Both the position numbers and the translations under genes were made by a program. The notes beneath the pieces were generated by a model, which searched no databases, was not told the DNA's origin, and worked only from the letters and a program-made list of their open reading frames with translations. DNA of 64,000 nucleotides from Pelagovum pacificum (GTDB taxonomy: Bacteria; Pseudomonadota; Alphaproteobacteria; Rhodobacterales; Rhodobacteraceae), in assembly GCF_016134045.1 (NCBI RefSeq), contig NZ_CP065915.1, forward strand, positions 186,001 through 250,000, given 5' to 3'. This document shows, one piece after another, positions 3,367-19,650 of this stretch (the first letter of the stretch is position 1; each line of letters opens with the position of its first letter).

Positions 3367-4425
3367 TCAGAGGCGGATCGGCTTGCCGGTGCGGATGCTC
3401 TCGTCCGCGGCGAGGCAGATGTGCAACGATGCGACCGCGTCGGTCATGTGCCGGTCGAGGTCCACACCCTCGGTGATCGCGCGGTAGAGGAAGTCCTGCT
3501 CCCGGTCGCAGAGGTCCTGGTGGCCGGGCTCGTCGGACATGTCGAGCCACTCGTCCTCGCGCAGCAACTGATCGTTGCCGTCCATCTCCGCATGGTGGAC
3601 CCGGATACGGGAGGTCTGGGTGTGGGCGTTGATGTCGGCGGAGTGAGCGCTTTCCTCCATCACGATGGAGACCGCACCGTTCGGGGACATGACATCCTTC
3701 ACGAAGTAAGCGGTTTCCGAGATCATCGGCCCCCACGCCGCTTCGTACCAGCCAGAGGACCCGTCTTCGAACAGCACCTGGAACTGGCCGTAGTTGTACA
3801 TGCCGTCGGGCAGGCCCTTGGCGAGCGTCGTGCCCATGCCGCGTACCTCCACCGGTCGGGAGTCGGTGATCTGGCACATCACGTCGACGTAGTGGACGCC
3901 GCAATCGACGATCGGGGAGGTGGTCTGCATGATCGACTTGTGGATGCCCCACGCGGCGCCGGAGGATTGCTGGTTGAGGTTCATCCGGAACACGAACGGA
4001 CCGCCGAGCTTGCGGGATTCCTCGATCAGACGCATCCACGACGGGTGGTGGCGCAGGATGTAGCCGACGACCAGCTTTCGGTCGTTGGCCCGCGCCGCCG
4101 CGACGACACGCTCCGCGTCCGCCACGTTGGCGGCGAGCGGCTTTTCCACGAAGACGTGCGCGCCGGCTTCGAGTGCGGCAACGGCAAAGTCGGCGTGGGT
4201 GTTGGTGTGCGTCGAAATCGACACGACGTCCGGCTTCAGCTCGTCCAGCGTCGCCATGAAGTCATTCATCACCGGGTAGCCGGACAGCTCCTGCGGCAGG
4301 GTTGGGGTCGAGCGGTTCACGAGGCCGACGATCTTGTAACCGGGGTGCGCGTGATAGGCGAGCGCGTGGCTGCGCCCCATCTGGCCAAGACCGACGACCA
4401 GGACGGAAAGGGGTTCGGTGCTCAT
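3367..4425 (-). CDS. Gfo/Idh/MocA family oxidoreductase
   Basis: A 352-residue NAD(P)-dependent sugar dehydrogenase. The Rossmann motif GLGQMG is at 12-17, the catalytic-lysine motif EKPLA at 94-98, and VDCGVHYVDVMC corresponds to the family GxHxxD element. The family oxidises a sugar ring hydroxyl (inositol, glucose, glucosides) at C1, C2 or C3. It is 20 bp downstream of the GMC oxidoreductase on the same strand, with a GGAG ribosome site, so the two form an operon. Together with the TIM-barrel genes nearby this suggests sugar or glycoside oxidation. The true substrate cannot be read from sequence. Confidence 0.9.
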   Translation of the reverse strand: MSTEPLSVLVVGLGQMGRSHALAYHAHPGYKIVGLVNRSTPTLPQELSGYPVMNDFMATLDELKPDVVSISTHTNTHADFAVAALEAGAHVFVEKPLAANVADAERVVAAARANDRKLVVGYILRHHPSWMRLIEESRKLGGPFVFRMNLNQQSSGAAWGIHKSIMQTTSPIVDCGVHYVDVMCQITDSRPVEVRGMGTTLAKGLPDGMYNYGQFQVLFEDGSSGWYEAAWGPMISETAYFVKDVMSPNGAVSIVMEESAHSADINAHTQTSRIRVHHAEMDGNDQLLREDEWLDMSDEPGHQDLCDREQDFLYRAITEGVDLDRHMTDAVASLHICLAADESIRTGKPIRL

Positions 4426-4445
4426 CGGATGATCTCCGTTTCTTC

Positions 4446-5933
4446 TCAGACGCTGCGCTTTTCGGCAGCGATGCGGCGCGCGCCGAGGGTGGCGAGCGCG
4501 ACGCTGTAGGGGGTCGGGTTGGTGGCGGTGATGGTCGGGATCACGCCGTTGCCGGCGACATGCAGGTTCTCGAAGCCCCAGACCCGGCTGTCACGGTCGC
4601 AGACGCTCGTGCCGTCGTCCGTCTCGCCCATCCGGATCGTGCCCTGGTAGTGCAGTGAACTGCCAATCGGCAGAACGGTGGCGGCGAGGCCTGGAACGGG
4701 GCGGCCGAGCAGGCTCGTGATCTCGTCGGACAGGGCGCGGCCCTGTTCGATCCGCGCGAGGTCGCCCTCGGTCGGTCGGGCCCTGATCGAGAAGCTCGGC
4801 AGGCCCTTCCAGTCGGTCTTGCTGTCGTCGAACACGATCCGGTTCTCCGGCGTGATGTCAGAGGCGACGAAGACGCCGATGAAGATCAGCCGATCCTCGA
4901 CCGGCTCGTCGAGCGGGAAGGGAAGCTGCCGCTCTTCCGCGCCGGAAATGGTGACGGAGAACGGCCACGGATCAATACGGGGAATCCAGCTCATCGACCG
5001 CATCGGGCCGCCGAAGTCGCCCTGGATCAGTCGCGTGACCTGGTAATGGTCGTTGATGTTTCGGCCAAGCGCGTCGGGCCGGATGCCGGAGGCCCACAGA
5101 AGCTGCGGCGAGTGCAGTGAGTCGCAGGCCACCACGACCGAACCCGCCTTGACCTCGTAGGTGTCGTCGGTGCCCGGGCGGCAGAGCACGACGCCCGTCG
5201 CACGCCCGTTGTCATGGATGATGCGGCGGCACGCGGTCTCGGACAGGATGCGGAACGTTTCTTCGGGCTCGTCGAGCATGTCTCCGAGGATCGTTTCGAT
5301 CCCGTGCGTGACGATACCGTACTGCGTCCGGTGCATGGCGAGCGGCATCGGCTGAACGCGACGATCCTGCGGCCGGCCGTCGTCGAAATGCTCTGCGAGC
5401 TTCGCGCGCAGGGCGTCGGCCGCCGGATCATTCGGGTTGATGTCAGGCTCTGACCCGAGAAGCTCGCTGGCGAGATGGAGGGCGGCGTCCATCTCTGAGG
5501 CGTCGATGAAGGGCGGGCGTTCGGCGAGCGACGGATGCGGACAGCCGGAGGTCCATTGCGTCGCCATGCCACCGACGGCGGCGGCGGCGAAACCGGCGAA
5601 GACGCCGTCTTCCGCCGGATCGTCGTTCGACATGAACAGCCCCTGCCGCCGCAGGAGGGAGCCGTCGTGGCTGCCGGCGTGACGCGCAAGCCATTCTTCC
5701 CGTGTGATCGGCGCGTAGGCGTCACGGGTCGGTCCCTGTGAGGCAAGTTCGGCGACAGCGCGGTCGCCGGGCGTCATGTTGGCGACGTGGGTACCGGGGC
5801 GCGGCGCGGTCTGCGGGCCGGCTTCGACCATCAGGATGCGCGCCTCCGGCCAGTCGCGTCGTATGATCCGGGCATAGGCGGCGCCGGTCGGGCCACTGCC
5901 CACAATGACGACATCGGCTGAATGGGGCTGCAT
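4446..5933 (-). CDS. GMC oxidoreductase, pyranose oxidase-like flavoprotein
   Basis: A 495-residue FAD enzyme. The N-terminal FAD loop is GSGPTG (12-17) with Glu37 for the ribose. The C-terminus has SLHYQGTIRMG (His428) and GNGVIPTITATNPTPYS (Asn472), the His/Asn pair expected at a GMC active site. The tail and the VEAGPQ and SQGPT stretches resemble pyranose 2-oxidases and bacterial glycoside 3-oxidases more than choline dehydrogenases. The position equivalent to the flavin-linking His of fungal pyranose oxidases reads Thr-Gln-Trp (125-127), so FAD is probably not covalent. I set the start at ATG 5933 (MQPHSADVVIVG) because a CCGGAG site precedes it; upstream in-frame codons are not protein-like. 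No signal peptide: cytoplasmic. Confidence 0.87.
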   Translation of the reverse strand: MQPHSADVVIVGSGPTGAAYARIIRRDWPEARILMVEAGPQTAPRPGTHVANMTPGDRAVAELASQGPTRDAYAPITREEWLARHAGSHDGSLLRRQGLFMSNDDPAEDGVFAGFAAAAVGGMATQWTSGCPHPSLAERPPFIDASEMDAALHLASELLGSEPDINPNDPAADALRAKLAEHFDDGRPQDRRVQPMPLAMHRTQYGIVTHGIETILGDMLDEPEETFRILSETACRRIIHDNGRATGVVLCRPGTDDTYEVKAGSVVVACDSLHSPQLLWASGIRPDALGRNINDHYQVTRLIQGDFGGPMRSMSWIPRIDPWPFSVTISGAEERQLPFPLDEPVEDRLIFIGVFVASDITPENRIVFDDSKTDWKGLPSFSIRARPTEGDLARIEQGRALSDEITSLLGRPVPGLAATVLPIGSSLHYQGTIRMGETDDGTSVCDRDSRVWGFENLHVAGNGVIPTITATNPTPYSVALATLGARRIAAEKRSV

Positions 5934-6070
5934 GGATCGAATACTCCGGAGGCTGTCATGTTTCGTGCGAACAGGATGTCGCAATTGCTGTTTTGTCAAT
6001 GCGCTTGCCGATGTGAAGGGCGATCTCTAGATTGCAGGAAAATCGCTTTGGATGCGAATTGAGGTTTCAG

Positions 6071-6976
6071 ATGAAGATCGGCGTAAGTTCGTACAGTTTC
6101 CACCCCCTTCTGAAAAAAGGGGAAATGCAGATCGAGGAGGTGTTCGACTGGGTCGCGCAGAAAGGTGGCGAGCATGTCGAGCTTGCCACTTTTACCATCG
6201 GTCCGGGAATGCAGGACATGATGAGCTACCGACTGGCCGACGATCCCGAGGTTCTGAACCGGCTGACCACGGCCTCCGCGAACAGCGGTGTGCTGCTTTC
6301 CGGGCTCTGCATCTCGGCGAGCTTCCTCGGCAGCGCCGAGGAGCGACAGGCGCAGATCGACCGGGCTAAGAGCTACGTCGAACTCTGTGCTCACCTCGGC
6401 GTCGGGTTCCTCCGCTTCGACGTCGTTCCGTGGCCGCTGCGCCTTGAGAACTACGCACAATTTGAGCGCGAGTTTCCGAGTATCGTGGCCGTCTGCCGGG
6501 AGATCGCGGAGCACGGCGAGACCCACGGCGTGATGACGAGCATCGAGGACCACGGCTTCTTCATGAACGGAAGCGAACGCGTGCGCCGCCTGATCCACGC
6601 GGTCGATCATCCGTTCTTCCGGATGACGCTGGATGTCGGGAATTTCCTTTGTGTTGATGAGGATGCGCTGATCGGAACGCAGGCTTGCCTGCCCCATGCG
6701 GCCTTCGTTCACCTCAAGGATTTCCACATCCGCAAGCACGCTCCGGGGGAGGGCTGGCTTGAGACGTATCACGGCCGGCACATCCTCGGCTCCATCTTCG
6801 GGCACGGGGACATGGACACGCATAAGGTGATCGAGCTTATGCTGCGCTCGGGCTACGACGGGTTTGTCTCGCTGGAGTTCGAGGGTCTGGAATCGTCTCT
6901 CGTCGGCTGCGAGATGGGCCTCGCCAACATTCGTCGGATGGTCGACGAGGTCTCCGAAGAGATCGCCCGGGGCTGA
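6071..6976 (+). CDS. Sugar phosphate isomerase/epimerase-like TIM-barrel protein
   Basis: A 301-residue AP-endonuclease-2-fold protein (xylose isomerase-like TIM barrel). It starts MKIGVSSYSFHP and contains SIEDHGFFMNG, MTLDVGNF, VHLKDFHIRK and SLEFEGLE, which carry the Glu, Asp and His metal ligands at barrel strand ends. The family includes sugar epimerases, inosose dehydratases and the enzymes that break 3-keto-glycosides. It is divergent from the GMC gene (137 bp between starts) and converges on a second TIM-barrel gene. ATG 6071 fits the family start; the in-frame codons before it do not. Substrate unknown; the neighbours suggest an oxidised sugar. Confidence 0.88.
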   Translation: MKIGVSSYSFHPLLKKGEMQIEEVFDWVAQKGGEHVELATFTIGPGMQDMMSYRLADDPEVLNRLTTASANSGVLLSGLCISASFLGSAEERQAQIDRAKSYVELCAHLGVGFLRFDVVPWPLRLENYAQFEREFPSIVAVCREIAEHGETHGVMTSIEDHGFFMNGSERVRRLIHAVDHPFFRMTLDVGNFLCVDEDALIGTQACLPHAAFVHLKDFHIRKHAPGEGWLETYHGRHILGSIFGHGDMDTHKVIELMLRSGYDGFVSLEFEGLESSLVGCEMGLANIRRMVDEVSEEIARG

Positions 6977-6997
6977 GGCCCCGGACGACCGATCGGC

Positions 6998-7807
6998 TCA
7001 GAGCGCGCGAATCCGATCGGCCCGCGCACGCAGGTCGGCAAGCCGCTCTGGTCCGCCGCCCGGCATCTCGATGGACCCCCATCCGCGATACCCCACGGAC
7101 TTGAGCGCAGCATTCACCGCCGCCCAGTCACAGTCGCCGTCCCCAAGCTCGACATCAAAGCCCTTCCATGGCCCTTCATCGTTCATGCGGTCGAGCGAAT
7201 ATTCCTTTACGTCTATTCGGAAAATCCTGTTTCCTAATTCCTCGATCCAATCCCTTGGATTTCCGATTTTCAGAACATTCCCAATATCCAGATACCAGCC
7301 GAGGTGAGGTGAATCGAATTCATCCAGGAATCGCGCCGCTTCAATGGGACTGAGAAGGAAATCATTCCAGACATTTTCAAGCGCGATCCGAACGCCTGTT
7401 CTTTCAGCATGCGGAATTAATTCCGCGATATGCGACAGGGCGAAATCGCAGGCGCTGCGGTAACTCGTCTGCGCATCGACCTTGCCGGGGACGAGGAGCA
7501 CGGTGTCGGCGCCGACTGTCGCGGCATCCTCCATCGCGCGGATCATGCCGCTGCGCCCGGCGGCGCGAACCTCCGGATCCGGATCGGACAGCGGGGCTTT
7601 CCAGTGGACCGAGTTCACGGCGCCGGGGATGGCGACGCCGGTCTCCCGGCTGGCGGCCAGCATCTCGTCCAGATCGACGTCCCCGGGCAGATCGGGTTCG
7701 ATCCCGTCGAAGCCCGCGTCGGCGGCCATGCGGAACCGGTCGAGCACGGTATCCGCGCCCTCGATCATCGACCACTTCAGGCTGATCTTTTCCAGCGGCA
7801 GGCTCAT
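6998..7807 (-). CDS. Sugar phosphate isomerase/epimerase-like TIM-barrel protein
   Basis: A 269-residue member of the same TIM-barrel superfamily as the neighbour at 6071 but only distantly similar. Metal-ligand segments are IALENVWNDF, GWYLDIGNVLKIG, FRIDVKEY and WGSIEMPGGG. Its ATG at 7807 overlaps the stop of the M81 peptidase gene (ATGA), so it is the last gene of the amino-sugar operon. The stretch of about 7180-7440, which encodes much of the metal site, is markedly AT-richer than its surroundings and uses codons (AAT, ATA, TTA, AGG, GGA) rare elsewhere here, suggesting recombination or recent import. Confidence 0.87.
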   Translation of the reverse strand: MSLPLEKISLKWSMIEGADTVLDRFRMAADAGFDGIEPDLPGDVDLDEMLAASRETGVAIPGAVNSVHWKAPLSDPDPEVRAAGRSGMIRAMEDAATVGADTVLLVPGKVDAQTSYRSACDFALSHIAELIPHAERTGVRIALENVWNDFLLSPIEAARFLDEFDSPHLGWYLDIGNVLKIGNPRDWIEELGNRIFRIDVKEYSLDRMNDEGPWKGFDVELGDGDCDWAAVNAALKSVGYRGWGSIEMPGGGPERLADLRARADRIRAL

Positions 7808-9240
7808 TTGGCGCGCGCCGACCAGAGCGCCTTGGGCGTGAAGTCGAAATCCTTCTGGAACGGATAGGTCGGCACAGGCGTGCGGCTGCGCGGCAGGCGT
7901 TCGACATCCTGATCGACCACACCCGGTGTCAGCGCCATGAGCGACGTCTTCGCCAGCGCTTTCATGTCGGGAGAGAGGTAGCCGGACTTCACCACCACGA
8001 TCTCGGCCATCGTCGGGTCGAGTCCGAGCGCGGCGAAATCCGCGTCGTTGTGGTAGGGGCGGCGACGGGCGGCCACGACGAAGATGATGGTGCCGGTCTT
8101 CAGAACCGCCTGCCGCTCGCGCGGGGCTGTGCCTTCCGACAGATGCAGGACGCGAGCGGTGACAGTGACCCGCTCCGAGTTCTCGGTGTCGAGTGTGCCG
8201 CCGACCGAAACTTCGATTTCGGCGCCTTCGCCGGCGGCGAATGCGGCCTCCGTCGCGGGGAGGTCCGCGATGCCGGCGAGGATGACATTTTGCGCACCGG
8301 CCTCGACCAGCTTGCCCAGCACGCCGGCCCGGTCCCCGGCACCGCCTGCGGTCGGGTTGTCGCCGCTATCGGCCAGCACGACGGGTCGCGGGACGTCGCC
8401 CATCGCCTTGGCGATCAGAGCGTCGGCCGAACCGGTCTCAGTCCCGAAGGCAAAGTCGTCGCGGGCATCCCAGTAGCTTTGCGCCATCGCGGTCGCGGCC
8501 TGTTCCATCGCGTCACGGTCGGTCCCGGTGAGGACAGCGGCAGCGGTGACGCGCGGCTCATCAACCCAGACGTAGCCGACCATCAGCGCGGCATCCCAGA
8601 TCCCGTCGGGCGCTTCGTGTTGCGGGATCGCGGCATAGAGCGAGGCGGCGGGCTCGTCTTCGGTCGAGGTCTTCTCGCCTGGCAGGGACACCGGGATCCG
8701 GGCCCAGCAGACCGATGGACGCTCACCGGTTTCGAGGCAGCGGACCAGTTGTTTCATGGCGCGGTGGTGCGTCTCGACCACGTCGATGTGCGGCGCGGTG
8801 CGATAGGCGGTGAACATGTCGATGCTGTCGATGATCCGCTGGCTGAGGTTGCCGTGCAGATCGTAGGAGGCGCAGATCGGCATCTCCGGCCCGACGAGCG
8901 CGCGGATCGCGGTGATGAGGTCGCCTTCGCTGTCGTCCATCCCGTCGACATGACTTGCGCCATGCATCGGCAGGTAGAGCCCGTCGAACGGCATCAGCGC
9001 CTCCAGCCGTTCGAGGATCTCGGCCTTGAATGCCTCGTAGGTGACCTTCGCGATGGGCGCGCCCGGCACGGCGCGGGCGTGGAAGGCCGGCAGGATCTCG
9101 GCGTCGTAGTCACCGAAGAAGGCGAACAGAGGGGAATCGAGCATCTCCTGGCCGCGGAGGATGTTGAAATCCTCGGTCCGGGTCAGGGTCGGGCTGTAGC
9201 TGGCGCATTCGATGTGCAGGCCGGCGACGGCGATCTTCAT
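7804..9240 (-). CDS. M81 family (MlrC-like) metallopeptidase
   Basis: A 478-residue protein of the family named for the microcystin-degrading MlrC. It begins MKIAVAGLHIECASYSP and has LPMHGASHVDG, SYDLHGNLSQR and TAPHIDVVETHHRAM, which supply the predicted zinc ligands, and ADSGDNPTAGGAGD further on. It lacks a signal peptide. The start at 9240 overlaps the nagA stop (ATGA), placing it in the amino-sugar operon between nagA and a TIM-barrel gene. M81 members hydrolyse small or modified peptides; here a peptide-linked amino sugar or an amide bond is a reasonable but unproven target. Confidence 0.87.
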   Translation of the reverse strand: MKIAVAGLHIECASYSPTLTRTEDFNILRGQEMLDSPLFAFFGDYDAEILPAFHARAVPGAPIAKVTYEAFKAEILERLEALMPFDGLYLPMHGASHVDGMDDSEGDLITAIRALVGPEMPICASYDLHGNLSQRIIDSIDMFTAYRTAPHIDVVETHHRAMKQLVRCLETGERPSVCWARIPVSLPGEKTSTEDEPAASLYAAIPQHEAPDGIWDAALMVGYVWVDEPRVTAAAVLTGTDRDAMEQAATAMAQSYWDARDDFAFGTETGSADALIAKAMGDVPRPVVLADSGDNPTAGGAGDRAGVLGKLVEAGAQNVILAGIADLPATEAAFAAGEGAEIEVSVGGTLDTENSERVTVTARVLHLSEGTAPRERQAVLKTGTIIFVVAARRRPYHNDADFAALGLDPTMAEIVVVKSGYLSPDMKALAKTSLMALTPGVVDQDVERLPRSRTPVPTYPFQKDFDFTPKALWSARAK

Positions 9241-10352
9241 GGCATGGTCCTGTTGATCTGGTCGGGAGGGAGGAGGGCGAGGCCCTCGTCGAGCATGATG
9301 TAATCGGAGAGGATCTCTCCGCTTGCGGCGACTTGTGGCGGCAGGCCCAGCACGGCGCGGGGAATGTCGGTTGCCATCGCGATGGCCTGCGACAGCGGGA
9401 TGCCGGCGTGGTGGTGGACGTTGCGGATACTGGTGAGCATGTCGATATGCGCCCCGGCGAGGGAGCCCTCGGCGTTGACGAGCGCCCCGTCGCGCACGTG
9501 GATCGTCTGGCCGTAGAGGTCGAAATGGTCGGGGCCGCCGACCGTCGCCATCGCGTCGGAGACGAGGTAGGCGCGGTCCTGCCGGGGCCGGGCGGCGAGC
9601 GCGATCCGCAGCATGTCCCAATGCACATGGATGCCGTCTGCGATGATCCCGAACGGCACCTCGGACAGGATCGTCGCGGCGAGCAGGCCCGGCGCGCGGG
9701 AGGCCATAGGCTCCATTGCGTTGTAGAGGTGTGTGACGTTCGACACTCCGGCCTCGAAGGCGGCACGGGCCTCATCGGCATCGGCCGCGGTGTGCCCGGC
9801 AGAGACGATGGCACCCGTCGCGACGAGTTCGGCCAGAAGCGCGGGGTCGGCGCGCTCGGGCGCCAGAGTGACCATCACTGTGAGTCCGGCTGTGCGCAGC
9901 CGTTCGACGGTGGCGAGCGTCGTCCGGTCGAGCGGACGGATCAGGTTCACATCGTGGGTGCCCTTGCGGGACGGGGCGAGGTGCGGGCCCTCGATATGCA
10001 GGCCGAGCTGGCCGGGCTCTCCGTTCACTTCGATCGCCGCATCGGCGGCGGCGTCGATCACGGCCGGCCGGTCGGTGATGACCGTCGGCAGGATCGCCGT
10101 GGTGCCGAGGGCGCGGTGCGCGGCGGCCATCGTCCGCAGCGTGTCCGGCGTCGGGGCGGAGTTCAGCATCACGCCGCCACCACCGTTGACCTGCAGATCC
10201 TGAGCGCCCGGCATGAAGACATGCGGCCTCAGGTGGCCGGGGCCGGTCGCAGGTGTCACGGCCGTGATCCGGTCGCCCTCGACATGGATCGCGAGACCCG
10301 GTTCGAGCGCGCCGTCGAGGTAAGTGAGATCCGGGGTGACGATCATGCTCAT
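9237..10352 (-). CDS. nagA: N-acetylglucosamine-6-phosphate deacetylase
   Basis: A 371-residue amidohydrolase removing acetate from N-acetylhexosamine-6-phosphate. Diagnostic segments are DLQVNGGGG (the NagA form of the usual HxH strand), LHIEGPHLAPSRKGTHD, VSAGHTAADADEA, SNVTHLYNAM and LVSDAMATVG, in order. Length matches the family. Start ATG 10352 lies inside the stop of the kinase gene (ATGA), and its own stop overlaps the M81 gene, so it is an internal gene of a translationally coupled operon. Given the AgaS-like neighbour it may act on GalNAc-6P as well as GlcNAc-6P. Confidence 0.93.
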   Translation of the reverse strand: MSMIVTPDLTYLDGALEPGLAIHVEGDRITAVTPATGPGHLRPHVFMPGAQDLQVNGGGGVMLNSAPTPDTLRTMAAAHRALGTTAILPTVITDRPAVIDAAADAAIEVNGEPGQLGLHIEGPHLAPSRKGTHDVNLIRPLDRTTLATVERLRTAGLTVMVTLAPERADPALLAELVATGAIVSAGHTAADADEARAAFEAGVSNVTHLYNAMEPMASRAPGLLAATILSEVPFGIIADGIHVHWDMLRIALAARPRQDRAYLVSDAMATVGGPDHFDLYGQTIHVRDGALVNAEGSLAGAHIDMLTSIRNVHHHAGIPLSQAIAMATDIPRAVLGLPPQVAASGEILSDYIMLDEGLALLPPDQINRTMP

Positions 10353-11245
10353 GCCTTCAGCCCCATCAGAGCCGCGCCGCGCGCGCCAGAACTGTCGCCG
10401 TGTTGCGCCACGGTGATGAGCGGCATCCGGGCGCTGCCGAGACGCAGCGCCTCGAGGCTGGTGGTGAGGCGGTCGGCGACGCCGGGCAGGTTCGAAAGCC
10501 CGCCGCCGATCACGATACAGTCCGGGTCGAGCGCAAGCTGGATCGTGTCGAGCACATCGCCCGCGATATCGGCCCAGATGTCGAGCACCTCGTCGAGCGC
10601 CGGCTCGGTGCCGAGCGCCTCCGCACCGTGGCGGGTGCCTGTCTTCCACTCGGCGATGTTCTTGAAGCCGGTGCCGGAGATATAGTTCTCCACACAGCCG
10701 AGCCGACCGCAGCCGCAGCGGAACATCGGCAGGCCGTGCCGCTCTATCGCGCGGTAGGACATGCCGATGTGTCCGACCTCGACCGCGAGGCCGGCATGGC
10801 GCGGCGGGATCGCGCCGTCGATCGAGACGCCGCCGCCGACGCCGGTTCCGAGGATCAGCCCCATCACGACGCGATGGCCGTCTCCGGCGCCGCCCTGCGC
10901 TTCGGAAAAGGCGAAGGCCATGCAGTCGTTCACGACCGGGATCGCCTCGCCGAAATGCGCCTTCAGCGCAGCGGGGATCGAATGCCCCGAAGCGGGGATG
11001 TTCGAGGCAAAGCTCTCCCCCGTGGCCGGGTCGATCACGCCGGGGATCGCGACGCCGACGGGCAGGGACGGGTCGCCCGATTCTGCGCGAAGCCAGTCGA
11101 CCTGTCCGATGAGCGCGCTCATCAGCCCGTCGAAACTGTCGGTCGGGGTCGGGACGCGATGGACCTTCACGGTTTCCGCGCCCGCGCCTTCGAAGAGGCG
11201 GGCTTCTATCTTGGTCCCGCCGAGGTCAATGCCGCCAATCCGCAT
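10349..11245 (-). CDS. nagK: ROK family sugar kinase (probable N-acetylhexosamine kinase)
   Basis: A 298-residue ROK kinase. The phosphate loop is DLGGTKIE (7-14), the catalytic Asp sits in VVNDCMAF (Asp107), and the zinc motif CGCGRLGCVE is at 177-186, preceded by a conserved EVGHIGM. There is no DNA-binding domain, so it is a kinase and not a NagC-type repressor. Its position between the AgaS-like gene (2-bp gap) and nagA (overlap) fits phosphorylation of GlcNAc or GalNAc after import by the ABC transporter of the opposite arm. Sugar specificity is inferred from context. Confidence 0.85.
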   Translation of the reverse strand: MRIGGIDLGGTKIEARLFEGAGAETVKVHRVPTPTDSFDGLMSALIGQVDWLRAESGDPSLPVGVAIPGVIDPATGESFASNIPASGHSIPAALKAHFGEAIPVVNDCMAFAFSEAQGGAGDGHRVVMGLILGTGVGGGVSIDGAIPPRHAGLAVEVGHIGMSYRAIERHGLPMFRCGCGRLGCVENYISGTGFKNIAEWKTGTRHGAEALGTEPALDEVLDIWADIAGDVLDTIQLALDPDCIVIGGGLSNLPGVADRLTTSLEALRLGSARMPLITVAQHGDSSGARGAALMGLKA

Positions 11246-11247
11246 GG

Positions 11248-12312
11248 TCAGCCGTGGAACGGGTAGAGCTGCACGCCACTGACGACGCGCGTGAGGTTCT
11301 TGCCGGCGAACGGATCGTCGACATTGAAGCCGAGCTCCGCCGACCACCTGACCGACAGCACCTGCGCCGCCAGCACGTAAAGCACAGCCGTTCTCCGCGC
11401 GTCCGGCGACGGCGCGGGCAGGTCGATGTCGCCGCCGAATCCGATCGTCGTGACCGGGATGCCGGGGAACTGGCTGCGGATCTCGGCCGCGATGTCGGCG
11501 TCGTAGCGGCTGGTGTGCGGGTCGGGATGGATCATGGCGAAGACGTGCGTGTCCTCGTCCACGCCGGCCTTCGGGCCGTGGCGGTAGCCGAGGGTGCTGT
11601 CCCACTGGGTCAGCGTCTTTCCCGCGGCAAGCTCCAGCACCTTCAGCGCGCTCTCGCGGGCGATGCCTGTCAGCGCACCCGCGCCGAGGAAGACGGCGCG
11701 ACCGGGACGCGGTGCGTCCATGCCCTCGACCGTCTCGAGGATCGGGCCGGCGGCCTCGGCCAGTGCCGGAAGCTCGTCCGGTTCGATCCCGCCCAGGCAG
11801 GCCAGCGCAGTCAGCAGCATCGTCGTAAAGCTCGACGTCATCGCGAAGCCCTGGTCGTGGCAGGCGTCGGGCAGAACGATCGTACGCGACTCGCCGGGGC
11901 CGGGCGCCGGCCGCTTGGCGAGGTCGGACTCCTTGTTGCAGGTGATGTTGAGCCGGTCGATGTCGGGCCGGTGAAGGTCGAGGAGATCGAGCATCCCGAC
12001 CGTCTCGGACGAATTGCCGGAACGGCCGAACTGGATGGCAAGGATGGGGCCCTCGCTCTTCAGGAAGTCCTGCGGCGCGCCGACGAAATCCGTGGTCGGA
12101 ACGACCTGCAGCCGGTCGTCGCCGGTGGCGATCACCTGCCCGACATAGGCGGAGGTGCCCGCGCCCGACAGCCAGATGCGGCGGTATCCCCGGGCCTCGA
12201 TCCACGGGCGGATCTCGGCGATGTGCGCGGCGAGCGGTTCGGCCCAGTCACGCCAGATGCCCGGCTGGGCGGTGATCTCCTGCCAGGTGCTGCTCGATTG
12301 ATAGGTGGTCAT
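11248..12312 (-). CDS. SIS-domain aldose-ketose isomerase/deaminase, AgaS-like
   Basis: A 354-residue protein with two SIS domains. It starts MTTYQSSSTWQEITAQPGIW and has GAGTSAYVG (about 50-58), VVPTTDFVGAPQDF, FGRSGNSSETV, LNITCNKES and HDQGFAMTSSFTTMLL. This pattern is that of AgaS, the galactosamine-6-phosphate deaminase/isomerase, rather than the glutamine-dependent GlmS, as no amidotransferase domain is present. Its ATG overlaps the stop of the regulator gene. nagB lies on the opposite arm of the island, so the strain appears to carry two hexosamine-6P deaminases, perhaps for galacto and gluco substrates. Confidence 0.85.
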   Translation of the reverse strand: MTTYQSSSTWQEITAQPGIWRDWAEPLAAHIAEIRPWIEARGYRRIWLSGAGTSAYVGQVIATGDDRLQVVPTTDFVGAPQDFLKSEGPILAIQFGRSGNSSETVGMLDLLDLHRPDIDRLNITCNKESDLAKRPAPGPGESRTIVLPDACHDQGFAMTSSFTTMLLTALACLGGIEPDELPALAEAAGPILETVEGMDAPRPGRAVFLGAGALTGIARESALKVLELAAGKTLTQWDSTLGYRHGPKAGVDEDTHVFAMIHPDPHTSRYDADIAAEIRSQFPGIPVTTIGFGGDIDLPAPSPDARRTAVLYVLAAQVLSVRWSAELGFNVDDPFAGKNLTRVVSGVQLYPFHG

Positions 12313-13172
12313 GTCAGGATCTCTTGCCGATGGCCCTCCAGCAGGATCACCTCGACACCGCGGGCGCGGATCGCGTCGAGCGCGTCCTCGTTCCCGGCGC
12401 GTTCCGTCACCAGGATGGACACGCGGTCGAGGTCGCAGATCTTGTGAAGGGCGGGTTTTGAAAACTTGGTGCCGTCGGCGAGGACGACGACACGGGATGC
12501 CGCCTCGACCATCGCACGGGTCTGGCGGGCCTCGTCCTCCCGGAAGGTGGAGAGGCCAAGCCCGGCGTCGATCGAGTCGGCGCCCATGACGAACGTGTCG
12601 AACCTGAGGCCCGACACCGATTGCTCGACGAGGCCGCCGGTGAGGCACATCTGGTTGGGGCGGATTCGGCCGCCGGTCATCATGACGGTGTGCTGGCCGT
12701 GGGTCATCGCGTTCTGCGCCACGATCAGGCCGGTGGTCATGATCGTCAGCGGCGCCACATCGGCGAGGCTGGCGGCGAAGAATTCCGCGGTCGAACCGTT
12801 GTCGATCAGGATCGTGCTGTCGCCCTCGATCAGCGGCACGGCGCGGCGCGCGATGGCGCGCTTGGCATCGAGGTTCACGGCACGCCGGTCGCTGCCGAGC
12901 GGCTCGACCAGACCGTTCCGGCTGGGCTGGCGGGCAAGGGACAGGGCAAGGTCGATCCGGAAGTCGGACAGGCCCGAGTGACCGAAGTGCTGGCAGAAGC
13001 GCAGAAGCGTCGGTTCAGACGTACCGAGCTCGGTGCAGATCTCACGCGAGGTGTTCCGGATGAAACGCTCGGTGTCGTCGAGCGCGGCGGCGCCGATCGC
13101 CCGGAGCTTCGGAGTCAGCCGCGGCAGGTCTTCACGAATCGCGCTCAGAAGGTCGCGGTCTGACACCATCAT
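12309..13172 (-). CDS. Transcriptional regulator: RpiR-type HTH fused to DeoR C-terminal sensor
   Basis: A 287-residue regulator with an unusual architecture. Residues 10-80 match the RpiR (HTH_6) domain: LPRLTPKLRAIGAAAL, then ICTELGTSEPTLLRFCQHFGHSGLSD. Residues 100-260 match the DeoR C-terminal sensor rather than an SIS domain: NLDAKRAIARRAVPLI, STILIDNGSTAEFF, ADSIDAGLGLSTF and VVLADGTKF. The DeoR sensor binds phosphorylated sugars. It heads the left-arm operon and should control the divergon. The ATG at 13172 (followed by a second ATG) has a GGAG site nine bases upstream. Confidence 0.87.
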   Translation of the reverse strand: MMVSDRDLLSAIREDLPRLTPKLRAIGAAALDDTERFIRNTSREICTELGTSEPTLLRFCQHFGHSGLSDFRIDLALSLARQPSRNGLVEPLGSDRRAVNLDAKRAIARRAVPLIEGDSTILIDNGSTAEFFAASLADVAPLTIMTTGLIVAQNAMTHGQHTVMMTGGRIRPNQMCLTGGLVEQSVSGLRFDTFVMGADSIDAGLGLSTFREDEARQTRAMVEAASRVVVLADGTKFSKPALHKICDLDRVSILVTERAGNEDALDAIRARGVEVILLEGHRQEILT

Positions 13173-13201
13173 GCGGGCCGGCTCCAATCTAGATCGATCT
13201 C

Positions 13202-13400: not shown

Positions 13401-14549
13401 ATGAAGTATGGTGTCATCGGCCTTGGTCAGAGGGTCGCGCATCTCGTGGGAGAATTCGCCGCGGTCGATCCCGAGGCGGAGTTCGTCGCGGTCGCGGATC
13501 CCGATGCAACGCGCATGGTGACCCTCGCCGAGAAGGGGATCGAGCCGGTCCGCTACGAGAGCGCCGAAGAGATGATGGCCCAGCACGATTTCGACGTGCT
13601 CATGATCGGCACGCCGAACTCCATGCATCTCGATCACCTGAAGCTGGCCCTCGAGAGCAAGACGCCTTTCATCTTCACCGAGAAGCCCGTCGTCGCGACG
13701 ATCCCCGAGACGATCGAACTGGCCCGCCTGATCCACAAGCACGATGGCAAGAAACGCCTGATGGTCGGTCTCGTGCTGCGGTACTCGACGCTCTACAAGC
13801 AGCTGCGCGAGGCGCAGGCCAAGGGCATGCTGGGCGAGATCATGTCGATCGAGGCGGCCGAGCACATCGCGCCCTACCACGGCTCCTTCTTCATGCGGGA
13901 CTGGCGGCGGGAGAGCGAGATCTCCGGCGGCTTCATGCTCGAGAAATGCTGCCACGACCTCGACCTCTACCAGGGGGTGATGGGCGCGCGTCCGATGAAG
14001 ATCGCAAGCTTCGGCGGTCGCAAGAAATACATCCCGAGCCGCCGCCCGGCAGCCGAGCCGGCTTACCTGACGGAGATGAGCCCGCGCTGGAACGGCATCA
14101 ACGACGCGTTCTCCGGCTCCGGTGACCTGATCGACTACCAGGTCGCGGTGGTCGAGTACGCCAATGGCGCGGCGATGACCTTCCACACCAACCTCAACGT
14201 CCCGGACGAATACCGCAGCTTCACCGTGGTCGGCGTCGACGGGATGGCCGAAGGCGACTTCGTCCGCAATTACCTGCGCGTCACCTCTTCCGATACGTCC
14301 GAGCGGCTGGTCGAGGTATCGCCCGGCACGGGGCAGGCGAAGGGCCACTACGGCGCGGACGCCGAGATGGCCAAGGACATCACGGACTACCTGCACGGCC
14401 GCAGCAAGGAGCTTCCGCTCAGCGTGATCGACGCGCTCGAAGCGGGTGTCACCGCGCTGGCCATGGACGAATCGCGCACCACCGGGCGCATAGTCGAGCT
14501 CGAGCCGATCTGGGACGACCTCGACAAGGCGCTGAAAGGAGAGTCATGA
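13401..14549 (+). CDS. Gfo/Idh/MocA family oxidoreductase
   Basis: A 382-residue NAD(P)-dependent dehydrogenase, first gene of the plus-strand ABC transporter operon. It starts MKYGVIGLGQRVAHLV, with TEKPVVA as the catalytic Lys motif, and FMLEKCCHDLDLYQ in place of the usual GxHxxD strand. RRESEISGGFM and the C-terminal RTTGRIVELEP resemble oxidoreductases encoded with sugar transporters in Rhodobacteraceae. ATG 13401 was chosen because the fold begins there; GGAG lies about 12 bases before. Its stop overlaps the permease start (ATGA). It probably oxidises the imported sugar; the substrate is unknown. Confidence 0.9.
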   Translation: MKYGVIGLGQRVAHLVGEFAAVDPEAEFVAVADPDATRMVTLAEKGIEPVRYESAEEMMAQHDFDVLMIGTPNSMHLDHLKLALESKTPFIFTEKPVVATIPETIELARLIHKHDGKKRLMVGLVLRYSTLYKQLREAQAKGMLGEIMSIEAAEHIAPYHGSFFMRDWRRESEISGGFMLEKCCHDLDLYQGVMGARPMKIASFGGRKKYIPSRRPAAEPAYLTEMSPRWNGINDAFSGSGDLIDYQVAVVEYANGAAMTFHTNLNVPDEYRSFTVVGVDGMAEGDFVRNYLRVTSSDTSERLVEVSPGTGQAKGHYGADAEMAKDITDYLHGRSKELPLSVIDALEAGVTALAMDESRTTGRIVELEPIWDDLDKALKGES

Positions 14550-15475
14550 GCGAGCGGGCAGACACCTACGACGCGACGGCGGCGGACCCGGACGGGGGCC
14601 TCTCGGCCCGGATCGACTGGTTTCCCTACCTGCTGCTCCTGCCGGCCTTCTTTCTGGTTGCGACAATCGTGGCCTGGCCGCTGGTGGAGACCTTCCGGCT
14701 GAGCTTCACCGACGCGTCGATGCGCGGCGAGGAATTCATCGGCTTCGAGAACTACGTTGAAATCTTCGACGACGACTTCACCGAGGTCATTCAGCGGACC
14801 TTCATCTGGATGTTCGCCAGTGTCGGACTGAAAGTCTTGCTCGGCATCTTCGGCGCGGTTCTGCTGAACGCGGCGATTCCCGGCCGGGTGATCTTCCGCA
14901 TTCTGGTCATGCCGCCCTGGATCGTTCCGATCGCCATCGGCGTGTTCATGTGGGGCTGGATGTACAACGGCCAGTTCGGGATGATCTCGGGCCTTGGTCA
15001 GAACATCGGCATCCTCGACGGTCCGTTCGAGTTCCTCGGCTACCAGACCTCCGCCTTCATCGCGACGATCGTCACTGACGTCTGGATCGGCACGCCGCTC
15101 GTCGCGATCTACCTGCTGGCCGCGATGCAGAGCATCCCGACCGAGCTCTATGAAGCGGCGTGGACGGACGGGGCAGGGCGCTTCTACCGCTTCCGCCGGA
15201 TCACGCTGCCGCTGATCGCGCCGTCGGTCGCGACCATGGCGCTGTTGTCGGCGATCTGGACCTTCAACTCGTTCGACATCATCTGGATCCTGACCGAGGG
15301 CGGCCCCCGCGGTGCCACCACCACCATGATCATCGACACCTACAAGACCGCCATCTCGCGGTTCCGCTACGGCGAAGGCGCGGCGCGCGCCGTGATGATC
15401 CTGATCTGCCTCAGCCTCTTCGCGGCCTGCTACCTCGGCCTGCTGTCGCGGCTCCAGAAACGGGGGAAAGCGTAA
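14546..15475 (+). CDS. Sugar ABC transporter permease (MalF/UgpA-like)
   Basis: A 309-residue inner-membrane permease of the carbohydrate uptake CUT1 class. A cytoplasmic N-terminus of about 28 residues precedes six predicted membrane helices. The EAA loop is YEAAWTDGAGRFYRFRRITLPLIAPS (first half YEAAWTDGAGRFYRF), which contacts the ATPase. It overlaps the upstream dehydrogenase stop and the second permease start (TAATG), showing tight coupling. It forms the translocation pore with the next gene's product. Confidence 0.92.
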   Translation: MSERADTYDATAADPDGGLSARIDWFPYLLLLPAFFLVATIVAWPLVETFRLSFTDASMRGEEFIGFENYVEIFDDDFTEVIQRTFIWMFASVGLKVLLGIFGAVLLNAAIPGRVIFRILVMPPWIVPIAIGVFMWGWMYNGQFGMISGLGQNIGILDGPFEFLGYQTSAFIATIVTDVWIGTPLVAIYLLAAMQSIPTELYEAAWTDGAGRFYRFRRITLPLIAPSVATMALLSAIWTFNSFDIIWILTEGGPRGATTTMIIDTYKTAISRFRYGEGAARAVMILICLSLFAACYLGLLSRLQKRGKA

Positions 15476-16317
15476 TGATCAACAAGTACCGCTGGTGGGA
15501 GTTGTGCCTGATCTACACGGGCATGCTGATCTTCCTGGCCTTCGTGCTGGCGCCCTTCGTGGAAGCCTTCAAGGTGTCGCTGCGGCCGCTCGACGGGCTG
15601 TTCTCGATCCCCTACCGGTTCCTCGACGACGACATGACCTTCGCGGCCTACCGGGAAATGTGGACGAACGTTCCGAACCTGCTCCGCTACATGGTGAACT
15701 CGTTCTTCATCGCCTGTTCGGTGACGGTCCTGGCACTGCTCTGCATTGTCCCGGCCGCCTACAGTTTCGCCCGGTTCGAGTACCGGGGACGGGACTCGAT
15801 GCTCGGCGCGTTCCTCGCGATCAACATGGTCGGCGCGGCAGTTCTCATCATCCCGCTCTACAAGCTGATGCTGACGCTCGGGCTGCTGAACTCCTACGCC
15901 TCGATGATCATTCCCGGTGCCGCGTTCAGCGTGCCGACCGGCATCTTCCTGATGCGCTCCTATTTCCTGCGCATCCCGAAGGAGCTGGAAGAGGCCGCAT
16001 ATGTCGATGGCGCGAGCCGTCTCTACACCCTGTGGCGGGTCATTCTTCCCGTCAGCCTGCCGGGCATGATGGTCGTCGCGATCGCGACCTTCATCACCGC
16101 CTACGCGCAGCAGTTCCTCTTCGCGCTGACTTTCAACAGCCGGGACGAGCTCAAGCCGCTGCCGGTCGGGCTCTATGATTTCTTCGGTCATCAGCAGGTT
16201 CGCTGGAACGAGTTGATGGCCGCAAGCCTGATCGGCATCGCTCCGGTGCTGATCGTCTACATCTTCCTGCAGAAATACATCGTCGACGGGCTGACCTCCG
16301 GCGCGGTGAAGGAATGA
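15475..16317 (+). CDS. Sugar ABC transporter permease (MalG/UgpE-like)
   Basis: A 280-residue CUT1-class permease with six predicted helices and the EAA loop LEEAAYVDGASRLYTL, followed by PVSLPGMMVVAIATF. Start ATG 15475 shares one base with the preceding stop codon (TAATG). It pairs with the preceding permease, the binding protein at 16349 and the ATPase at 17634 to make one complete importer, with amino sugars or their conjugates the likely cargo from context. Confidence 0.92.
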   Translation: MINKYRWWELCLIYTGMLIFLAFVLAPFVEAFKVSLRPLDGLFSIPYRFLDDDMTFAAYREMWTNVPNLLRYMVNSFFIACSVTVLALLCIVPAAYSFARFEYRGRDSMLGAFLAINMVGAAVLIIPLYKLMLTLGLLNSYASMIIPGAAFSVPTGIFLMRSYFLRIPKELEEAAYVDGASRLYTLWRVILPVSLPGMMVVAIATFITAYAQQFLFALTFNSRDELKPLPVGLYDFFGHQQVRWNELMAASLIGIAPVLIVYIFLQKYIVDGLTSGAVKE

Positions 16318-16348
16318 TGAACCAACCGGTCGCAACAGGGAAACCGAT

Positions 16349-17566
16349 ATGAAAAAGACCCATCTCGTTCTCGCATCCAGCGCATTGGCGCTCTTCGCGG
16401 GTGCCGCCGCGGCGCAGCAGGAAATCCACATCATCAACTGTGGTGCCGGTGCCGACGAACAGAACCCCGTTCAGGAAGCCCACGCCGACGCATGGCTCGA
16501 GGATAACCCCGACTACACCGTCCGTTTCGAGTATGTGCCCTGGGGCTCCTGCCAGGAACGCGCGATCACGCTCGCCTCTGCCGGTGACCCCGCCGCCGCC
16601 GCCTACATGGGCTCCCGCGTGCTGCCGCAGCTGGCCGACAGCGGCCTGATCCTGCCGATCGACCTGACCGAGGAAGAAACGAACACCTACGAAGCGTCCG
16701 TCCTGTCCACCGTTCAGGTCAACGGCGAAATCTGGGGTCTGCCCCGCGCCTTCTCGACCAAGGCCCTGTTCTGGAACAAGGACCTGTTCGAAGAAGCCGG
16801 CCTCGACATGCCCGACGGCCCGACCACCTGGGAAGAGATGGTCACCGCCGCTCAGGCGATCTCCGAGAACACCGATGCCGCCGGCTTCGGCGTCCCGGCT
16901 GCCGACTTCGACAACACGATGCACGAGTGGCTGAACTTCGTGTACTCCAACGGCGGCACGATCCTTCAGGACGACGGCACCGTGACCTTCGACAGCCCCG
17001 AGGTTGTCGAGGCGCTCCAGCTGTACGCCGATCTCGCGCCGTACGTCGAAGAAGGCCCGCTGGCCTATGACCGTGGTTCGCTCGAGCCGCTGTTCGCCGA
17101 AGGTGCGATCGCCATGTACACCAACGGCGGCTGGGGCCGTCAGTCGGTCGGCGAAGACACGAACTACGGCATCGCGCCGATCCCGGCCGGCCCGTCGGGC
17201 GATAGCGGCACTCTGCTCATCACCGACAGCCTCGTCGTGTTCGACGGCACGGGTGTGGAAGAGGCCACCATGGACCTCATCACCTACCTGACCTCGCCCG
17301 AGCGGCAGTCCGAGTTCGACCTGGCCGGCGGCTGGACGCCGATCCGCCAGACCGAGGACACTGCTGCCCTCATCGAGGAAGACGCCTCCTGGGCGCCCTT
17401 CATCGAAGCGATCCCGAACGGTGGCCCGGAGCCGCAGCTGATCGACTACGTCTCGATGCAGGACGTCATCAACGAGGCTATCCAGGCCGTTCTGCTTGAA
17501 GAAGCGACTGCCGAAGAGGCCGCCGCCGACGCGCAGGAAGAACTGGTCGACCTCGCCGAGGAGTGA
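16349..17566 (+). CDS. Sugar ABC transporter substrate-binding protein
   Basis: A 405-residue periplasmic family-1 binding protein. A Sec signal peptide ([22 protein letters not shown]) is cut near residue 22, before [33 protein letters not shown] and [10 protein letters not shown] are typical of CUT1 binding proteins. It is acidic and codon-biased, as expected of an abundant protein. It lies 31 bp after the permease gene with its own ribosome site. A strong hairpin follows its stop and may stabilise this part of the transcript, giving more binding protein than membrane components. Confidence 0.92.
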
Positions 17567-17584
17567 TCCTCGAGAAACGACTTC

Positions 17585-17610
17585 CGGGGGCGGCACGCTT
17601 GCCGCCCCCG
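17585..17610 (+). terminator. Strong hairpin after the binding-protein gene
   Basis: An 11-bp perfect stem CGGGGGCGGCA/TGCCGCCCCCG with a 4-nt loop, between the binding-protein stop (17566) and the ATPase start (17634). There is no U-tract, so it is likely an mRNA-stabilising or partial terminator hairpin inside the operon. Confidence 0.6.
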
Positions 17611-17633
17611 AACACAGATCAGAAAGGGCCCGG

Positions 17634-18749
<1,116 letters not shown>

Positions 18750-18750
18750 C

Positions 18751-19521
18751 ATGCGCGTTCGCGTTCACGAAGATCCCGCCGCCGCGGCGGCGGAAGCCGC
18801 CGAAGTGCTGGCCCGTCGGCTTGCCGACCGGCCAGAGGCCGTGCTCGGACTCGCCACCGGCGGCACGATGGAGCCGCTCTACGAGGACCTGATCGGCCGC
18901 TACAAGCGAGGCGACCTCAGCTTCGCGAAGGCGACGACCTTCAACCTCGACGAATATGTCGGTCTCGCCCCCGATCACCCTCAGAGCTACCGTCGCTACA
19001 TGGAGGAGCATCTGTTCCGCCATGTCGACATCGACCCCGCGCGGACTCATGTGCCGCGCGGCGACTTGCCCCCGGAAGAGGCGGCAGAGGCCTACGAGAC
19101 GGATCTCGCCCGGCTCGGTCCGGTCGACGTGCAGCTCCTCGGACTAGGCCGCAACGGGCATATCGGCTTCAACGAGCCGACCTCGTCGCTCGCTTCCCGC
19201 ACGCGGGAGAAGGCACTCACGGCCAGCACGCTGCGGGCCAACAGCCGCTTCTTCGGCGAGGGCGAGACCCAGCCGACGACCGCGATCACCATGGGCATCG
19301 CGACGATCATGGAAGCGCGGCATATCCTCGTGCTCGCCGTCGGGGCCAAGAAGGCCGAGGCGGTGGTCAACATGATCGAAGGTCCGGTCGCGGCCATGTG
19401 CCCGGCGTCGATCCTGCAGCACCACCCGTCGGTGATGGTGATCCTCGACACCGAGGCAGCGTGCCTCCTGAAGCTGCGCGAGCATTACACCGTGGCCGAA
19501 CAGGGCGTCGCGCTCGTCTGA
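18751..19521 (+). CDS. nagB: Glucosamine-6-phosphate deaminase
   Basis: A 256-residue NagB-type enzyme converting glucosamine-6-phosphate to fructose-6-phosphate and ammonia. Motifs: LGLATGGTMEPLY (phosphate loop), FNLDEYVGL (catalytic Asp67), and GLGRNGHIGFNEP (about 131-143, catalytic His). Length is normal for the short form, without the E. coli allosteric tail. It is the last gene of the plus-strand operon and connects the imported amino sugar to glycolysis. The NagA, kinase and AgaS partners are on the opposite arm. Confidence 0.94.
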   Translation: MRVRVHEDPAAAAAEAAEVLARRLADRPEAVLGLATGGTMEPLYEDLIGRYKRGDLSFAKATTFNLDEYVGLAPDHPQSYRRYMEEHLFRHVDIDPARTHVPRGDLPPEEAAEAYETDLARLGPVDVQLLGLGRNGHIGFNEPTSSLASRTREKALTASTLRANSRFFGEGETQPTTAITMGIATIMEARHILVLAVGAKKAEAVVNMIEGPVAAMCPASILQHHPSVMVILDTEAACLLKLREHYTVAEQGVALV

Positions 19522-19650
19522 CCGACTGCGCGGCGTCAATATCTTGGGGATAAGGCGGCGAGTCGGCGCAGATGCGGTAGCGTCGTCGTTGACTCAACCC
19601 CACTCGCGGCGGCAGGCTTTTCCGAAAGAGCAGAATCGGAAACAACCGCA

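Follow-up and report, generated by a model that had tools for sequence, protein, structure and literature searches.

A four-gene cassette at positions 3367 to 7807 of the window (the whole 64,000-nt stretch analysed, positions 186,001 to 250,000 of Pelagovum pacificum contig NZ_CP065915.1) probably encodes a self-contained system in which redox chemistry splits a glycoside taken up by the cell, most likely one of a 2-acetamido sugar such as N-acetylglucosamine (GlcNAc). Its members are a flavoprotein of the GMC family, a Gfo/Idh/MocA oxidoreductase (GfoA) and two xylose isomerase-like proteins with the triosephosphate isomerase (TIM) barrel fold, here called TIM1 and TIM2. The identities of the four genes, their conserved linkage, the motif that sets TIM1 apart from TIM2, and the kinship of GfoA with a gene of nag-type operons are computed results; each catalytic step, the C3 position and the identity of the sugar are proposals. 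The cassette is laid out as follows.

3367..4425, minus strand: GfoA, Gfo/Idh/MocA oxidoreductase, proposed 3-keto-(amino)sugar reductase (Pfam PF01408, 8.7e-27)
4446..5933, minus strand: GMC flavoprotein, proposed glycoside 3-oxidase or dehydrogenase (Pfam; matches to 8qve, 7qf8 and 7dve)
5934..6070, no strand: divergent GMC/TIM1 intergenic region of 137 bp, presumed seat of both promoters (from coordinates only)
6071..6976, plus strand: TIM1, xylose isomerase-like TIM barrel, proposed beta-eliminase (PF01261, AP_endonuc_2, 3.4e-27)
6998..7807, minus strand: TIM2, xylose isomerase-like TIM barrel, proposed keto-glycal hydratase (PF01261, AP_endonuc_2, 1.6e-41)

The GMC and GfoA genes lie on the same strand with 20 bp between them, TIM1 is divergent from GMC, and TIM1 and TIM2 are convergent. 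Pfam bears out the families that a preliminary description had assigned here from the letters alone, although both TIM barrels lie on the GMC side of the GMC/GfoA pair rather than flanking it. In the proposed pathway, the GMC protein, via flavin adenine dinucleotide (FAD), would convert the C3 hydroxyl of the glycone of the imported glycoside to a ketone. TIM1, with a metal held by E159, D188, H214 and E269 and with His161 as base/acid, would then pull the C2 proton and expel the aglycone from C1, a beta-elimination that would leave a 3-keto-glycal. TIM2 would return water to give the free 3-keto sugar, GfoA would reduce C3 with NAD(P)H, and the sugar would be consumed by the NagK, NagA, AgaS and NagB proteins of the same island.

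By its sequence, the GMC protein is a bacterial pyranose-oxidase/glycoside-3-oxidase homologue, proposed to oxidise C3, possibly with O2 as acceptor. Its closest solved relatives are 8qve (“pyranose oxidase”, 1.2e-100), 7qf8 (4.8e-99) and 7dve (“6'''-hydroxyparomomycin C oxidase”, 2.1e-91), in alignments that span residues ∼3-492, nearly the full length, compared with ∼1e-22 for fungal pyranose 2-oxidases and weak matches for choline oxidases. The NCBIfam pyranose oxidase model also matches (2.5e-48), but at 165 bits, below its cut-off of 545. An identity as choline or alcohol dehydrogenase was considered and rejected, since the searches return sugar oxidases over the full length and choline dehydrogenases only weakly; the pyranose-oxidase-like label of the preliminary description thus stands, by search rather than by tree. 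The insertion sequence of 7qf8 is the one printed for PsG3Ox (there PsPOx) in PMC10807413, whose text describes proteobacterial pyranose-oxidase-like enzymes as not yet studied in detail. The counterparts of the catalytic PsG3Ox residues H440 and N484 are His428, kept in 43 of 43 GMC relatives, and Asn472 (42 of 43), and the protein has a stretch aligned with PsG3Ox residues 60-93, the insertion-1 segment near the active site. Among the substrate contacts named for PsG3Ox in PMC10646112, two are matched (R94 by R96, T129 by T128) and three differ (K55 to A51, Q297 to H296, Q340 to G331); these contacts were mapped by eye, and column counts were used only at GMC positions 126, 428 and 472. At the flavinylation-His position the 43 relatives have Lys (35), Gln (7) or Tyr (1) and never His, so the FAD of the GMC protein should be non-covalent, as is reported for PsG3Ox (PMC10646112). 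The FAD-binding motif starts at about residue 8, so the protein is probably cytoplasmic and its substrate should be imported.

The two TIM barrels differ in a motif proposed to act in elimination. In TIM1, E159-x-H161, D188, H214 and E269 are invariant in 16 of 16 aligned copies, and in its AlphaFold model (mean predicted local distance difference test score, pLDDT, 89.4) E159, D188, H214 and E269 sit at strand ends, so that a metal site is proposed at the ends of strands 5-8. The Glu-x-His motif is on strand 5 and is of the type known from 3-keto-glycoside beta-eliminases; H161, two residues past the strand-5 ligand, is the putative catalytic His. In TIM2 (mean pLDDT 93.7), the E144-N145-V146 motif is likewise invariant and contains no His, which would fit a hydratase. 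The O-glycoside eliminase AtOGE has His132 and a catalytic His134, and C-glycoside eliminases have Glu where His132 stands, according to PMC10628242; in this respect TIM1, with its Glu-x-His, differs from AtOGE. Genes of these kinds are also found in three distant actinobacterial GMC loci, where L053 contains Gfo, TIM (E-x-C), GMC and TIM (H-x-H) genes, L052 contains TIM (E-x-L), GMC and TIM (H-x-H), and L049 contains TIM (E-x-H) and GMC. The fold search places TIM1 nearest to the isomerase Art22, and TIM2 nearest to UlaE, followed by ketose 3-epimerases and YcjR. The TIM1 profile matches 7bvr (DgpB-DgpC) over a short stretch (1.9e-5), and AtOGE (8bvk) is not among the TIM1 profile and fold matches listed, which excludes nothing.

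When species genomes were scanned with the GMC alignment, 49 loci came up; of these, 44 are alphaproteobacterial and were counted, while five actinobacterial ones (34-44% GMC identity) were excluded. The 44 loci belong to Rhizobium, Devosia, Alloyangia, Salipiger, Allosediminivita and records named only Rhizobiales/Hyphomicrobiales, with GMC identities of 54-62%. TIM1 is present in all 44, TIM2 in 42 and an adjacent GfoA in 32; 30 loci have the complete set of four, 12 have no GfoA next to the other genes, and of the two loci without TIM2 one (L036) starts at a contig end. In 42 of 44 loci the genes have the order and orientation of the window (TIM2>, <TIM1, GMC>), and the linkage of the cassette is therefore not due to chance. 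The co-occurrence that the preliminary description proposed to check is seen in these loci but is not general among kin: GMC and TIM1 are each confined to their own genome among 101 relatives (own included, the other 100 being of the same genus, family or class) and in a set of 385 genomes sampled evenly across the class (thresholds for GMC and TIM1, respectively, 1e-60 and 1e-60 in the first set and 1e-80 and 1e-40 in the second; the sets overlap). As a separate observation, the GMC relatives of L046 and L051 (40-44%; Micromonospora, Streptomyces) have a neighbourhood in common. In L046 it includes adenylation-, acyl-CoA-dehydrogenase- and cysteine-desulfurase-like genes, and it may be a natural-product cluster that contains a sugar oxidase.

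Judged from sequence and gene context, the strongest amino-sugar link of the cassette is the GfoA gene. Residues K95, D174 and H178, which we take to be the catalytic positions of the Gfo/Idh/MocA superfamily, are invariant in 10 aligned copies. GfoA relatives (E ≤ 1e-90) occur in 17 of the 101 genomes including its own, the other 16 at 57-68% identity. In all 22 short GfoA loci, which represent 11 of these 16 relatives and 11 module genomes without an adjacent GfoA, the gene lies between two transporter genes (families f5 and f6, the latter a permease by Pfam in L036) and an ATPase gene. Eight longer regions give the wider context (HMM, i.e., hidden Markov model, naming on L082; the others named by sequence clustering). 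Five of these (L080-L083, L085) run into NagA, NagB-II, GntR and MurQ genes, with NagK in four of the five; the Rhizobium regions L078 and L079 contain GntR and NagK genes, and L084, of the same genus, contains none of the five kinds. Clustering of the genes in these eight regions brought up no relative of GMC, TIM1 or TIM2.

For 11 of the 12 module loci without an adjacent GfoA the genome was searched, and each contains one GfoA relative (69-70% identity) in the transporter arrangement; the twelfth locus (L042) ends at a contig end. For loci with an adjacent GfoA, 31 of 32 genomes were searched, and 29 have one copy, while two have a second at 56-57%. Among 25 genomes with GfoA next to the module (24 drawn from the 32, plus P. 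pacificum), 22 have no nag permease at E 1e-60 and the other three have it at 39-40% identity, one of these copies adjoining the module in L036, although the positive control for this search held only within the source genus and distant nag operons could be missed. A GfoA copy of the nag type seems able to replace the one in the module. A quick tree of 57 rows separates 33 module copies from 22 nag-type copies by a branch with a Shimodaira-Hasegawa-like approximate likelihood ratio test (SH-aLRT) value of 100; because the outgroup is very long, the root and the nag-to-module direction are inferred. On its own account, the Gfo/Idh/MocA gene beside the ATPase in the nag-type ABC operons of L066-L076, L080-L083 and L085, which has no labelled GMC or TIM partner, could encode a keto-sugar reductase or an NAD-dependent glycosidase. 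Regulation of nag genes is the subject of PMC5343134.

Amino-sugar genes (NagB or NanE) adjoin the module in six of the 44 loci, in addition to the window. In five of these (L005, L006, L007, L040, L047), NagB-, M81- and RidA-type genes adjoin the module; NagB and RidA were named by HMM in L005, where the NagB copy passes TIGR00502, and the remaining assignments are by BLAST. In the sixth (L036, Devosia limi), GfoA is followed by an ATPase, a binding protein (matching carbohydrate and chitobiose binding models below cut-off), two transporter genes, and genes for NanE, which passes its cut-off, and for a NagK-like kinase, which does not. Hydration of a 2-acetamido sugar, in which C2 has no hydroxyl, could lose the stereochemistry at C2, which would fit the NanE gene of L036. 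In L019 (Rhizobium tropici), a nag-type ABC transporter without a Gfo gene lies at 15798-19990, ∼4 kb downstream of GMC, and its binding protein is 43% identical to that of L082. Three further features of the five-locus group may be recorded. An M81/MlrC-type metallopeptidase gene is found within the window run as well as in these five loci (five of 44 loci, 56-57% identity). A RidA-family gene (PF01042; L005:6767-7165) accompanies the module in the five loci, which is noteworthy since the product of elimination from an amino-sugar 3-ketone would be enamine-like. The divergent TIM1-GMC region of the same loci contains repeated AT-rich elements, GAAAATATTTTACA and GAAAAGAATTTACG, a possible operator that is not obvious in the window.

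The island next to the cassette in the window has NagA-, NagK- and AgaS-type proteins, an ABC transporter and a NagB-type open reading frame (ORF), in agreement with the amino-sugar import and catabolism island of the preliminary description; the NagA, NagK and AgaS proteins each have the named family as best NCBIfam match, all below cut-off. Its genes are listed below.

7804..9240, minus strand: M81/MlrC-type metallopeptidase (PF07364 2.6e-91, PF07171 2.8e-50)
9237..10346, minus strand: NagA-type GlcNAc-6-phosphate deacetylase (TIGR00221 1.8e-64, 218 bits against a cut-off of 226)
10349..11245, minus strand: ROK-family sugar kinase, NagK-like (PF00480 7.6e-49; top NCBIfam match GlcNAc kinase, below cut-off)
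11248..12312, minus strand: AgaS-family SIS protein, deaminase/isomerase (TIGR02815 8.7e-78, below cut-off)
12309..13187, minus strand: regulator with RpiR-type helix-turn-helix (HTH) and DeoR-type sensor domain (PF01418 3.3e-10, PF00455 2.9e-42)
13401..14549, plus strand: Gfo2, second Gfo/Idh/MocA protein, leading the transporter run (PF02894, PF01408)
14546..15475, plus strand: ABC sugar permease (ORF and translation; labelled by reading, no HMM)
15475..16317, plus strand: ABC sugar permease (gene call; labelled by reading, no HMM)
16349..17566, plus strand: ABC substrate-binding protein (ORF and translation; labelled by reading, no HMM)
17634..18749, plus strand: MalK-type ABC ATPase (ORF; labelled by reading, no HMM)
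18751..19521, plus strand: NagB-type glucosamine-6-phosphate deaminase (NagB genes at five module loci match it with 53-57% identity)

The TIM2 and M81 genes overlap by 4 bp, and the M81, NagA, NagK, AgaS and regulator genes are spaced by 4-bp overlaps or 2-bp gaps. TIM2 is therefore the last gene of a tight regulator-AgaS-NagK-NagA-M81-TIM2 run, and so belongs to the amino-sugar run itself. The small beta subunit of C-glycoside systems, which the preliminary description had not seen, was not found here either, with no DUF6379/CarC-type protein among the ten island proteins scanned with Pfam and with gaps of ≤137 bp among the four cassette genes. For the two glycosidase families searched across the genome, GH3 gave three matches and GH20 one, all of them outside the window; the GH20 gene, at 1.21 Mb, adjoins a second AgaS copy. 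Two further features of the island are the joining of a PF01418 HTH to a PF00455 sensor in the regulator (12309-13187), which looks an uncommon domain pairing, and the position of a Gfo/Idh/MocA gene, Gfo2 (13401-14549), at the head of the ABC transporter run.

The 3-keto reading of the preliminary description is partly supported, by the kinship of the GMC protein, the conserved linkage of the genes, the Glu-x-His of TIM1 and the relatives of GfoA in nag-type operons; support for its amino-sugar side has strengthened, but the module is not general among relatives of P. pacificum. Two observations weigh against cleavage of an amino-sugar glycoside: in 38 of the 44 module loci the queries used picked up no nearby gene of amino-sugar catabolism (some flanks are short), and TIM1 as a whole is most like an isomerase. 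Kinship among the 11 genomes with only a transporter-linked GfoA weakens the argument that one GfoA copy can replace the other. The first of the two observations would fit a system in which the same oxidation, elimination, hydration and reduction acted on neutral glycosides, such as plant glucosides, with the amino-sugar neighbours incidental, and characterised relatives do act on glucosides (PMC10646112, PMC10628242). We consider this unlikely, given that GfoA has its kin in nag-type operons, that NagB or NanE stands beside the module in six of 44 loci, and that three PsG3Ox substrate contacts are lost in the GMC protein.

The second observation bears on a scheme in which the GMC protein oxidises elsewhere (C6, as in 7dve, or C2/C4) and the TIM barrels are epimerases or isomerases, so that an amino sugar is remodelled and no glycoside is split. 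The match to 7dve, an oxidase of a paromomycin derivative acting at C6, and the fold neighbours of both barrels (Art22; UlaE, ketose 3-epimerases and YcjR) are in line with such remodelling, but TIM1 has the Glu-x-His and TIM2 does not, and two of the actinobacterial GMC loci likewise combine a TIM that has this His with one that lacks it, which makes remodelling improbable. A cyclitol or aminocyclitol (inositol, rhizopine-like) pathway, with Gfo dehydrogenases and inosose-dehydratase-like barrels, is very improbable indeed: the N-terminal half of GfoA resembles scyllo-inositol dehydrogenase and TIM1 has a weak IolE match (4.9e-4), but the inosose dehydratase (IolE) and hydroxypyruvate isomerase models score ∼20-28 bits on the TIM barrels against cut-offs of 290-353, iol-type genes were not found among the ten island proteins scanned, and the GMC protein is a sugar oxidase homologue. 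An inositol pathway as the primary interpretation was dropped on these scores. The two outcomes that the preliminary description had named as fatal to it, a firm grouping of the GMC protein with choline or alcohol dehydrogenases and barrels that match inosose dehydratase or hydroxypyruvate isomerase without conserved linkage, were both looked for and did not occur.

Cleavage of an amino-sugar glycoside through a 3-keto intermediate would have close precedents in chemistry. The oxidation-elimination-hydration-reduction scheme has been published for GlycDH, AtOGE, AtHYD and Gfo of Agrobacterium tumefaciens (Nat Commun 2023, PMC10628242), where the hydratase evidence for AtHYD is termed preliminary. 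As described there, that operon has in common with the cassette 3-oxidation by a flavoenzyme, beta-elimination by a TIM barrel, a second TIM-type hydratase and a Gfo reductase. The same paper gives GlycDH as ∼20% identical to ScPOx, CarA and PsG3Ox, has it produced with a twin-arginine translocation (TAT)-pathway signal protein, and states that its C-glycoside-oxidase genome search did not reveal GlycDH operons. From the identity and the search result, it follows that the cassette is not a GlycDH operon: its GMC protein groups with PsG3Ox, to which GlycDH is ∼20% identical by the figure of PMC10628242, and it has no fifth gene corresponding to the TAT-pathway partner of GlycDH. The cassette differs from the published scheme in its oxidase and in its predicted amino-sugar substrate. 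From PsG3Ox (7qf8), 8qve and 7dve, with which it shares whole-length homology (1e-91 to 1e-100) and the catalytic His/Asn, the GMC protein differs in lacking the flavinylation His (43 of 43), in the three changed contacts, and in having TIM1, TIM2 and GfoA as partners with no CarC-like subunit.

The levoglucosan pathway (LgdA, LgdB1, LgdB2, LgdC) follows the same four-step scheme (PMC7676230, PMC10066097). It also shares with the cassette sugar-phosphate-isomerase-like proteins and an ABC transporter cassette. The first step differs, being catalysed by a Gfo-type dehydrogenase that uses NAD in the levoglucosan pathway and by an FAD enzyme here, and against the levoglucosan dehydrogenase model GfoA reaches 62 bits out of 650. 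The C-glycoside deglycosidases DgpB-DgpC and PuCGE are two-subunit enzymes; among the ten island proteins scanned, no such subunit was found. Alphaproteobacterial nag-type operons (NagA, NagB-II, GntR, NagK, MurQ, ABC transporter) have the GfoA orthologue in common with the cassette but, in the eight regions covered, no GMC, TIM1 or TIM2 relative.

Since GMC and TIM1 occur only in their own genome within both genome sets, the cassette has a patchy distribution, and its genes may move between genomes together. The same may hold for the island, the window AgaS having one relative at 62% among the 100 other genomes and otherwise relatives at 46-52%. Eight plasmid records contain a GMC relative, five of them from Rhizobium at 56-57% identity, and none was found in viral contigs. 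The surroundings of the module vary from locus to locus: among 20 neighbours scanned at eight of the loci are fumarase, nucleotide-sugar epimerases, a glycosyltransferase, a penicillin-binding protein, a helicase and parts of a sugar ABC transporter.

A literature search surfaced no report of such a four-enzyme amino-sugar route; the titles and abstract openings retrieved for 3-keto with N-acetylglucosamine, for GMC with nag and Gfo, and for 3-ketoglycoside with Rhizobium included none on this cassette, and nothing surfaced on Art22 with epimerase or on 2-hydroxy-3-keto-glucal with hydratase. We tentatively suggest a more specific reading, about which we are doubtful rather than confident, namely that this is the first redox (3-keto, beta-elimination) route for N-acetylated amino-sugar glycosides, through a 2-acetamido-3-keto-glycal, with the Gfo reductase recruited once from nag operons, and that C3 redox on GlcNAc-type sugars is widespread in alphaproteobacteria because the same Gfo sits in nag operons. 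The occurrence of the reductase in the cassette in some genomes, and only in a nag-type operon in others, makes a direct test possible. If the proposed pathway is correct, some bacteria would gain access to amino-sugar glycosides through four enzymes and redox chemistry. Functions could then be assigned to two unnamed TIM-barrel families, to the unassigned Gfo gene of nag-type operons and to a GMC clade that includes proteins labelled choline dehydrogenase or pyranose oxidase.

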